Shown here: one piece after another, positions 46,720-49,649 of the stretch
Layout of the letters: the number at the start of each line of letters is the position of its first letter
Position numbering within the stretch: position 1 is the stretch's first letter
Assembly (NCBI GenBank): GCA_003134555.1
Contig: PLBO01000113.1
Coordinates: forward strand, 75,374 to 126,535
From: Actinomycetota bacterium
GTDB lineage: Bacteria; Actinomycetota; Acidimicrobiia; IMCC26256; PALSA-610
Reading direction: 5' to 3'
DNA: 51,162 nt
Notes under the pieces: model-generated
Database searches by the model: none
What the model saw: the letters and a program-made list of their open reading frames with translations, nothing else
What the model was told of the DNA's origin: nothing
Made by a program: the position numbers and the translations under genes

Positions 46720-46977
46720 ATGCCCGACAAAGCCGCAACGATCAGCGACAACAAGCTCCACGACTCCGACACCGGCTCCGCCGAGGTCCAGATCGCACTC
46801 CTCACTGAGCGCATCCGCCACCTCACGGAGCACATGAAGGTCCACAAGAAGGACTTTCACACGCAGCGTGGGCTGCTGATGCTCGTCGGTCGCCGTCGGC
46901 GAATGCTCGACTACCTCCGACGCAACAACGTCGAGCGGTACCGGGCACTCATCGCCAAGCTCGGCATCCGTCGATAG
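46720..46977 (+). CDS. rpsO: 30S ribosomal protein S15
   Basis: 85 residues, slightly shorter than the usual 88-89. Core: [60 protein letters not shown], ending [12 protein letters not shown]. It binds 16S rRNA helices 20-22. It lies directly upstream of pnp, the widely conserved rpsO-pnp pair. Confidence 0.97.
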
Positions 46978-46985
46978 TGATTCGC

Positions 46986-47013
46986 ACGAGGAGCGGTCAA
47001 CCGCTCCTCGTTT
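46986..47013 (+). terminator. Intrinsic terminator/processing hairpin between rpsO and pnp
   Basis: ACGAGGAGCGG and CCGCTCCTCGT pair perfectly (11 bp) around TCAA, ending in only three T. It is probably a partial terminator that lets some transcription reach pnp, and may be an RNase III target, as at the enterobacterial rpsO-pnp junction (by analogy). Confidence 0.75.
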
Positions 47014-47153
47014 GACATTCGAAACTAACGCCGAGAGGAAGTGTCGGTTGTCAGTTGCGAGCGCCCGTTTCTCTGCCCACGAATTCTTGGGGAGATCCGG
47101 ACGCTGACAACTGGGAACCGGTGCCTCTCGGCTCAACAGAGAGGAACCGTCGC
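47014..47153 (+). promoter_or_regulatory. Structured pnp leader with mutually exclusive Shine-Dalgarno pairing
   Basis: GCCGAGAGG (47030-47038) complements CCTCTCGGC (47124-47132), and inside it GTTGTCAG (47047-47054) complements CTGACAAC (47104-47111), giving a nested long-range stem. The same CCTCTC (47124-47129) can instead pair with GAGAGG at 47139-47144, which is the pnp ribosome binding site. GAGAGGAA is thus present twice, once as decoy and once as real site. Confidence 0.55.
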
Positions 47154-49649
47154 GTGAGTGACGCAATTTCGGTTTCCGGTCCTATCAACGCCGCTGGGCT
47201 CGAGATGACGCTCGAGACCGGCCGACTCGCATCGCTGGCCGCCGGCGCGGTCGTCGTCAAGGTCGGCGGCACCACACTGCTGTCGACCGTGGCCACGTCG
47301 AAGCCCCGCGAGGGCATCGACTTCTTCCCGCTGACGGTCGACGTCGAGGAGCGGGCCTACGCCGCGGGCAAGATCCCCGGTTCGTTCTTCCGGCGCGAGG
47401 GTCGCCCGGGCGAGCTCGCGATCCTGACCTGCCGGCTCACCGACCGGCCGCTGCGCCCGTCGTTCCCGGCCGACTTCCGCAACGAGGTGCAGGTCATCGC
47501 CACCATCCTCGGGGTCGACCTCGAGAACCCGCACGACGTCGCGTCGATCAACGGCGCGTCGGCCGCGCTCACCGTCTCGGGCATCCCGTTCGACGGCCCG
47601 ATCGGCGCGGTGCGCCTAGCGCACCACAACGGCGAATGGATCGCGCATCCCACCTTCCAAGAGGGTGACGACTCCACGTTCGAGATCGTGGTGGCCGGCC
47701 GTCAGCTCGACGACGGCGACGTCGCGATCATGATGGTCGAGGCCGGCGGTACAGAACGCACGTGGGAGCTCTATGAAGAGGGCGCCCCGAAGATGACCGA
47801 AGAGCTCATCGCTCAGGGTCTCGAAGCGTCGAAGCAATGGATCTCGGCGTCCATCGAGTTGCAGAAGAAGCTCCGCGACGAGTTCATCAAGGCCCGCGGC
47901 CCGATCACACCGATCGAGTACATGCCGAATGTCGACTACACGCCCGCGGTGTACGCGGCCGTGAAGGCGAACGCGGAAGCGGAAACCGACGCAGCGATGA
48001 AGATCGCCGACAAGACCGACCGCAACAACAAGCTCGACGAGATCCTCGTCAGCATCCAGGTCGCGCTGATCGGCACGCCCGAAAAGCCCGGCGTGCACGC
48101 CGAGCAGGCCGGCGAGGTCAAGAAGGCCTTCCGTTCGCTGCAGAAGGAAGTCGTCCGGCGGCGCATCGTCAACGAGGGCGTGCGCATCGACGGACGCGGT
48201 CCGGCCGACATCCGGTCGCTCTCGGCCGAAGTTGGCGTACTCGACACCGCGCACGGCTCGTCCCTGTTCCAGCGGGGCGAGACCCAGGTGCTCGACGTGG
48301 CGACGCTTGCGATGCCGCGCATGGAGCAGATGCTCGACACGATCACGCTCGAGACCAAGAAGAAGTACATGCACCACTACAACTTCCCGCCGTTCTCCAC
48401 CGGCGAGACGGGCCGGGTGGGTTCGCCGAAGCGGCGTGAGATCGGTCACGGAGCGCTGGCCGAGCGGGCGTTGATCCCCGTGCTGCCGAGCAGTCTCGAG
48501 TGGCCATACACGATGCGTGTCGTCTCCGACGTGCTCGCGTCGAACGGTTCCACGTCGATGGCGTCGGTCTGCGGGTCGAGCCTTTCGTTGATGGACGCGG
48601 GTGTGCCGATCAAGGCGCCGGTCGCCGGCATCGCGATGGGCCTCGTGTTCGCGGAAGGCAAGTACACGACCCTCACCGACATCCTCGGGCAGGAAGACGC
48701 GTTCGGCGACATGGACTTCAAGGTCGCCGGTACGGCGGAGTTCGTCACCGCGTTGCAGCTCGACACGAAGATCGCCGGCATTCCCGCCGACGTGCTCGCG
48801 GCCGCGTTGCTCCAGGCCAAGGACGCCCGCCTGAAGATCCTCGCGGTCATGGAGGGTGCGATCTCCGCGCCGCGTGAAGAGGTGCGCAACACGGCACCGA
48901 AGATCGTGAGCTTCGAGATCCCCGTCGACAAGATCGGTGAGGTGATCGGCCCGAAGGGCAAGGTCATCAACACCATCCAGCAGGAGACGGGCGCCGACAT
49001 CTCGGTCCAGGACGCCGATGGCGTCGGCATCGTGTCGATCGGTTCCAAGGACGGTGCCGCGGTCTCCGAGGCGCAGCGTCGGATCGAGCTCATCCTCGAC
49101 CCGCCGACCGCCGAGGTGGGCGCGGTCTACGAGGGCCGGGTCGTCAACATCACGAAGTTCGGCGCGTTCGTCAACATCCTTCCGGGCCGCGACGGCCTGG
49201 TGCACATCTCGAAGCTCGGTCGCGGCAAGCGCATCGACCGGGTCGAGGACGTGTTGGCGTTGGGCGACGAGCTCTCGGTTCGGGTCGACGACATCGACCA
49301 GAACGGAAAGTTGTCGCTCTCGCTGTTGGGTGACGACGGCGACGAGCCGCGCGACGGCGGGAACGGCGACGGTGGCGGCAGCCGCGACCGCGAGCCGCGC
49401 GCACCGCGGTCCGACCGGGGCGACCGGCCCCCGCGTGAGTCACGCGACTCAGGGGGTTCGCGTGAACCGCGCGAGCCGGCCGACACCCGCGTGACGGCGT
49501 CGTTCGAGTCGGCGTGGGAGGAACAGGCCCGCGAGGAATTCGGCGATCTCGGACCCGCCGAGGAGCCGGCCAAGTCCGCGGCCGGCGACCGCCGCGGCGG
49601 ACGCGGTGGACGCGGTGGCGGTGCCCGGCGAGGTGGTCCGCGGCGGTAG
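47154..49649 (+). CDS. pnp: Polyribonucleotide nucleotidyltransferase (PNPase)
   Basis: 831 residues from GTG 47154, with AGAGAGGAA seven nt upstream; the longer frame from 47055 crosses the leader stems and is rejected. PNPase degrades RNA from 3' ends with phosphate. It has two RNase PH domains (ETGRLASLAAGAVVVKVGGT, PGSFFRREGRPGELAILTCR; then GVRIDGRGPADIRSLSAEVG and SSLSLMDAGVPIKAPVAGIA, with FGDMDFKVAGTAEF), a helical domain between, a KH domain (IGEVIGPKGKVINTIQQETG) and an S1 domain (GRVVNITKFGAFVNILPGRD). A 100-residue Arg/Gly/Asp tail ends in GGRGGRGGGARRGGPRR, longer than usual. Confidence 0.97.
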   Translation: MSDAISVSGPINAAGLEMTLETGRLASLAAGAVVVKVGGTTLLSTVATSKPREGIDFFPLTVDVEERAYAAGKIPGSFFRREGRPGELAILTCRLTDRPLRPSFPADFRNEVQVIATILGVDLENPHDVASINGASAALTVSGIPFDGPIGAVRLAHHNGEWIAHPTFQEGDDSTFEIVVAGRQLDDGDVAIMMVEAGGTERTWELYEEGAPKMTEELIAQGLEASKQWISASIELQKKLRDEFIKARGPITPIEYMPNVDYTPAVYAAVKANAEAETDAAMKIADKTDRNNKLDEILVSIQVALIGTPEKPGVHAEQAGEVKKAFRSLQKEVVRRRIVNEGVRIDGRGPADIRSLSAEVGVLDTAHGSSLFQRGETQVLDVATLAMPRMEQMLDTITLETKKKYMHHYNFPPFSTGETGRVGSPKRREIGHGALAERALIPVLPSSLEWPYTMRVVSDVLASNGSTSMASVCGSSLSLMDAGVPIKAPVAGIAMGLVFAEGKYTTLTDILGQEDAFGDMDFKVAGTAEFVTALQLDTKIAGIPADVLAAALLQAKDARLKILAVMEGAISAPREEVRNTAPKIVSFEIPVDKIGEVIGPKGKVINTIQQETGADISVQDADGVGIVSIGSKDGAAVSEAQRRIELILDPPTAEVGAVYEGRVVNITKFGAFVNILPGRDGLVHISKLGRGKRIDRVEDVLALGDELSVRVDDIDQNGKLSLSLLGDDGDEPRDGGNGDGGGSRDREPRAPRSDRGDRPPRESRDSGGSREPREPADTRVTASFESAWEEQAREEFGDLGPAEEPAKSAAGDRRGGRGGRGGGARRGGPRR

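Follow-up and report, generated by a model that had tools for sequence, protein, structure and literature searches.

The rpsO-pnp region and the fold of the pnp leader

The window, by which we mean the whole stretch of 51,162 nucleotides that was analysed, is part of a contig of an Acidimicrobiia genome and carries on its + strand, in this order, rpsO, a hairpin, the pnp leader, a Shine-Dalgarno (SD) sequence and pnp. The upstream gene, rpsO (46720-46977), is an 85-aa open reading frame with the sequence of ribosomal protein S15, and the gene order is the same in close relatives. pnp (47154-49649) starts with GTG and encodes a polynucleotide phosphorylase (PNPase) of 831 aa, which relatives match from residue 1. 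Its SD, GAGAGG (47139-47144), ends 9 nt before the GTG and forms a duplex of -10.1 kcal/mol with the 16S tail. The pnp frame is open upstream as far as a TTG at 47055, inside the leader core; no SD was seen at a suitable distance from this TTG. PNPase is a central enzyme of RNA decay and, to our knowledge, the setting of its level in bacteria other than E. coli is largely open.

Directly after rpsO, the fold of 46978-47180 contains a strong, terminator-like hairpin (46986-47011), and similar hairpins are found in relatives. It is GC-rich, has just three U behind it and may be a weak terminator or a protector of the 3' end, so that expression of pnp may require transcription to read through from rpsO. 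A scan of the + strand of the leader found neither a sigma-70 promoter nor an intrinsic terminator.

The leader folds into a long, irregular hairpin. Its stability compared with shuffled sequences (z -4.7 for 47025-47165 and -5.9 for 46978-47180, with 0 of 200 shuffles as stable) indicates that the structure is real. The lower stem joins GCCGAGAGG (the 5' arm, 47030-47038) to CCTCTCGGC (47124-47132) by nine Watson-Crick pairs with probabilities of 0.94-1.0, which bears out the first-pass annotation, where CCTCTC (47124-47129) had been paired with GAGAGG (47033-47038) and the helix extended to 9 bp. The GAGAGG within the 5' arm is a repeat of the SD sequence, and the CCUCUC of the 3' arm (CCUCUCGGC, 47124-47132) is, as also pointed out there, complementary to the SD itself and hence a potential anti-SD. 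Above the lower stem lie the 5' strand of the core (47044-47059, with GGUUGUCAGUUGCG at 47046-47059), an apical part (47060-47105) that folds in the window and differs widely in length and sequence among relatives, and the 3' strand of the core (47106-47121, with GACAACUGGGAACCG at 47106-47120). UCGGUU (47044-47049) pairs with AACCGG (47116-47121) and UCAGUUG (47051-47057) with CAACUGG (47108-47114), the two helices being separated by a G.G mismatch (47050/47115). The inner stem originally put forward, GTTGTCAG/CTGACAAC (47047-47054 with 47104-47111), is complementary but off register and had to be abandoned: forcing it costs 11.8 kcal/mol (-56.9 versus -68.7 kcal/mol), and it does not covary in relatives (7 double-change cells versus 6.3 expected).

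Since the lower stem and the pairing with the SD use the same bases, 47124-47129, the two folds are mutually exclusive, as had been noticed from the letters of the window, and an SD-complementary 6-mer with a distant upstream 9-bp partner arose in 1 of 20,000 dinucleotide shuffles. The alternative hairpin (47119-47149) exceeds the one first described, a 1x1 mismatch separating CCUCUC/GAGAGG from a further helix of CGGU (47119-47122) and ACCG (47146-47149). This extended hairpin is both the minimum free energy (MFE) structure and the centroid of the 3' fragment 47112-47165, in which the SD is closed. In the intact window leader its probability is near zero, the SD-open state of the uncut RNA lying at -68.7 versus -61.2 kcal/mol at equilibrium. 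With this preference of 7.5 kcal/mol for the open state the leader is not bistable alone; a spontaneous two-state switch is therefore unlikely, and the 5' strand must be removed or separated for the SD to close.

The exclusive folds, and the fact that some relatives are near balance between them, could be read as a riboswitch that moves from one fold to the other upon sensing a ligand or a temperature change. We regard this as very unlikely given the size of the energy gap in the window, the simple irregular hairpin that makes up the core, with its very variable apex and no aptamer-like junction, and the function of pnp, which is not a metabolite pathway gene. The window leader gave no match to an Rfam riboswitch.

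Conservation and spread of the leader element

We collected pnp leaders from 57 database loci as well as from genomes sampled at family, order and class level, and aligned them on the core, which was located with a weight matrix, an earlier search by regular expression having missed most of the order. The core alignment was converted into a covariance model, R1, for searches within Actinomycetota. R1 matches the window leader at 47032-47133 (G000:C113:122405-122506) with an E-value of 3.7e-7. In the order it has a match in 48 of 58 genomes; the figures for class and phylum are 106 of 218 and 49 of 246, and many of the phylum genomes with a match belong to other classes. The complete genome of IMCC26256 (CP011489) carries both the core and the arms. 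A genome nearly always has its match at one place, and pnp lies directly downstream at all 38 loci that were fetched. Among the class matches, for which some pnp positions are absent from the listing, two weak ones (G338 and G353) do not share a contig with the listed pnp. Some families had no R1 match among the matches listed; the true reach of the element is probably wider, because strict filtering was applied and the core can be seen in some leaders that were missed. The pnp gene and leader of one contig titled as a Bifidobacterium breve metagenome-assembled genome (L054, CAMDSG010000016.1) match those of IMCC26256-type Acidimicrobiia, and this contig is probably mis-binned or mislabelled.

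Covariation in the core was counted in an ungapped alignment of 78 diverse pnp leaders (A1). In the proposed register 85.8% of the cells are paired, compared with 23-43% in slid registers, and double changes number 182 versus 70 +/- 12 in shuffles; both counts lean towards structure, since alignment was preceded by clipping of the apical parts and pairing at nine positions helped to choose the anchors. Variation with pairing is also seen at the outer and apical pairs, which had no part in the anchoring. On a tree of the pnp protein with 82 members, each variable core pair underwent several independent changes of Watson-Crick type; four of these pairs, as examples, changed 6, 5, 7 and 6 times. 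In the lower stem, 5' and 3' arms from the same genome pair better than mismatched arms (z 3.5-13.3). By this comparison of leaders, pnp is preceded by a long predicted hairpin with a conserved two-helix core around the G.G mismatch and a lower stem that changes faster.

An ordinary terminator or a chance inverted repeat might have been suspected, given a GC-rich intergenic region with a terminator-like hairpin after rpsO. The covariation of the core, its conserved position, the lack of a terminator in the scan and the rarity of the arm arrangement among the shuffles leave this explanation practically no weight, and for the core hairpin it is refuted.

Conservation of the core sequence goes beyond pairing: five columns in A1 are invariant, and the G.G mismatch is present in 82 of 108 leaders. 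This would be expected if PNPase, through its KH and S1 domains, or some other protein bound the G.G core and repressed translation directly, with the arms only modulating the effect. A point in its favour is that a paper cited in PMC10362022 deals with translational repression by E. coli PNPase that does not require RNase III. Such a protein-binding leader would leave unexplained why the complementarity of the 3' arm to the SD is kept beside unrelated cores, and we consider it improbable.

For a leader in which a freed 3' arm closes the SD, compensatory changes would be anticipated in all three arms, as the first-pass annotation had pointed out. They are abundant between the 5' and 3' arms; between the 3' arm and the SD they are weak in the window's own order. 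With a test for contiguous helices, the covariation of the 3' arm with the SD reaches z ~2.1 in the window's order (reversed-SD control ~2.0-2.4), z 3.4-3.7 in the rest of the class (control 0.5) and z 5.9 overall (control 2.8). This test replaced an energy-based permutation because reversed-SD controls also scored there in the window's order; in the other orders, a control of the energy-based test in which the 3' arm was set against the first codons likewise gave z -4. Because the signal in the window's order does not exceed the reversed control, the complementarity there perhaps stems in part from base composition or from the SD-like 5' arm. Hand-picked trios of 5' arm, 3' arm and SD in which the arms change together, meant as an illustration and not as a test, are GAGAGG/CCUCUC/GAGAGG in the window, GCAGGAG/CUCCUGC/AGGAGG in L070, GUGAGG/CCUCAC/GUGAGAGG in L065 and GGAGAAG/CUUCUCC/GGAGAA in L102.

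Predicted accessibility of the SD

We expressed accessibility as the probability that the SD is unpaired, computed with one energy model at 37 C for sequences with assumed ends; the Wilcoxon values serve as a guide only, since the genomes compared are related and hence not independent. In the window, removal of the 5' half of the leader lowers the accessibility of the SD from 0.87 to 0.14. In the order (n=49) it falls from 0.52 to 0.32 (p 8e-10), where the control with shuffled linkers gives 0.52. The class outside this order shows a fall from 0.56 to 0.45, and 18 genomes of other classes that had not been used for model building show one from 0.53 to 0.29 (p 8e-6; control 0.39). Each of these values after truncation, that of the window included, is below its linker-shuffled control. 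Against a background of 21 SD-bearing open reading frames in the window, pnp is the only one with a closing of more than 0.3 on truncation; the mean effect of truncation at these 21 is that SDs open. Of the switch originally suggested for this SD, the part that holds is the predicted closing after loss of the 5' strand, while in the intact leader the open state is strongly favoured. The SD is predicted to be closed already in the intact leaders of two close relatives within the genus (L067, 0.14; L069, 0.23).

The Acidimicrobiales group showed no closing effect (0.53 to 0.49), so a leader can have the core and lack the SD step. In 11 of the 32 leaders of this group (L023, L026, L028, L029, L031, L034, L036, L048, L049, L051 and L064), a second hairpin with the conserved loop motif CGAA(G/C)G(U/A)CG lies between the core and the SD. 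The anti-SD arrangement of the window's order is found at this place, and the second hairpin is possibly a substitute element.

These results bear on a simpler explanation, according to which the leader is a hairpin for processing and stability, cut by RNase III and digested by PNPase as in E. coli, with no switch at the SD, and the SD complementarity merely follows from a purine-rich, SD-like 5' arm. Three observations agree with it: anti-SD/SD specificity is weak for the window's order, the Acidimicrobiales keep the core without closing of the SD, and we predict no anti-SD effect in the leader of E. coli. Such a hairpin accounts less well for three others: in three independent sets the closing is stronger than with linkers shuffled at constant composition, the other genes of the window do not show it, and the anti-SD/SD covariation is specific in the remaining orders of the class. 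We judge it somewhat unlikely and continue with a leader whose released 3' arm would act on the SD.

Known pnp leaders and a candidate mechanism

The first-pass annotation knew of no description of a similar fold and had overlooked both the Actino-pnp RNA (RF01688; PMC2864571) and the rpsO-pnp hairpin of Streptomyces coelicolor that is cut by RNase III (PMC10126417). Actino-pnp, a hairpin that contains conserved mismatches, is located in the 5' UTR of actinobacterial pnp genes (Weinberg et al. 2010, PMC2864571) and has been reported for Streptomyces lividans (PMC8079986). It resembles the window leader in its place in the pnp 5' UTR (window core 47044-47121, pnp at 47154) and differs in its core, GGUC-C-UCGGU ... 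AUCGA-A-GACC compared with UCGGUU-G-UCAGUUG ... CAACUGG-G-AACCGG in the window. Searched against Rfam 15, the window gave no match, and 17 related leaders scored no better than chance; for RF01688, with its gathering score of 47.7 bits, the window leader stayed below this score and gave no match at E-values up to 5, the 17 related leaders gave none at E-values up to 10, and none of 41 relatives had a hit over the cut-off. Conversely, R1 scored at noise level on Actino-pnp loci. RF01688 occurs in 9 of 149 genomes of the phylum, none of which is among the R1 matches, and in 60 of 60 genomes of the order to which genome G079 belongs. With different cores and no recognition of either by the model of the other, we do not file the window leader as Actino-pnp. 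Actino-pnp is its nearest analogue, common descent being neither shown nor excluded, and the R1 element is a conserved structured pnp leader RNA without an Rfam family. Our literature search returned no paper joining structured RNA, Acidimicrobi and pnp.

The likeness extends to the arms. Actino-pnp leaders (L100-L107 and L232-L259) have a trio of 5' arm, 3' arm and SD outside the boundaries of the RF01688 model; the trio of the leaders that we call Streptomyces-type on the basis of RF01688, GGAGAAG/CUUCUCC/GGAGAA, is arranged like that of the window, and 5' truncation is predicted to close their SD as well. Among 34 Actino-pnp leaders the accessibility falls from 0.60 to 0.42 (p 1e-6; control 0.54).

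In S. coelicolor, RNase III cuts a hairpin between rpsO and pnp, and PNPase activity is 2-4 fold higher in an rnc null mutant (PMC10126417); the cutting limits PNPase (PMC10126417, PMC5872136). This hairpin shares with the window leader its position in the operon and its long, irregular form before pnp. A feedback of PNPase and RNase III has been proposed in S. coelicolor and the cutting shown, whereas cutting of the window leader is proposed by analogy. An anti-SD step for the S. coelicolor hairpin was not found in the literature searched. PMC7866481 gives the general order of events: the stem of the pnp leader is cut by RNase III, and PNPase digests from the new 3' end. The autoregulation of pnp in E. 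coli goes back to work by Jarrige (2001) and by Robert-Le Meur and Portier, as cited in PMC5872136. The E. coli leader also has a stem, and loss of the upstream strand lowers expression there, but in our prediction this loss leaves the accessibility of the SD unaffected (0.42 to 0.45); the SD step is therefore not part of the E. coli precedent. Two E. coli-type features, the leader stem-loop and a gene for RNase III, are present here, the latter identified by TIGR02191 (235 bits, over the cut-off, E-value 1.4e-69). This gene (G000:C113:71417-72067) lies on the same contig, ~3.3 kb before the start of the window.

We propose, with about an even chance of being right, that the leader regulates pnp in cis: RNase III and PNPase would autoregulate the gene through it by freeing an anti-SD. 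RNase III and PNPase are the natural candidates because both are encoded in the genome and because pnp is controlled in this way in E. coli and probably in Streptomyces. In a new transcript the 5' arm would pair with the 3' arm, which would hold the anti-SD CCUCUC away and leave the SD open. By analogy with these systems, plentiful PNPase would be the physiological trigger: RNase III, or another nuclease, would cut the hairpin, and PNPase would digest the 5' strand starting at its new 3' end. The folding predictions suggest that the freed 3' arm would then fold onto GAGAGG, so that ribosome loading would be blocked and the message exposed to decay. The regulation would thus be negative, with PNPase limiting its own synthesis. 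If this model is correct, the new element would be the use of the released strand as an anti-SD, after the RNase III/PNPase step.

We further suggest, more tentatively and at slightly less than even chance, that actinobacterial pnp leaders with at least two dissimilar cores share this logic: the SD-like 5' arm would be a decoy for the anti-SD, and its digestion by PNPase would shut the enzyme's own gene. An exonuclease would in that case be sensed through what it eats. The analysis provides an RNA element that is absent from Rfam and conserved in several actinobacterial groups, together with a covariance model that works in searches. It also connects the removal of a strand to the closing of a ribosome binding site in a concrete way that experiments can test. 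As the three-arm layout also occurs in Streptomyces-type leaders, it can be tested in a tractable host. One Actino-pnp leader, L105, has its SD enclosed by an adjacent hairpin (CUUCCGUU/AACGGAGG), with an accessibility of 0.09 in the intact RNA.
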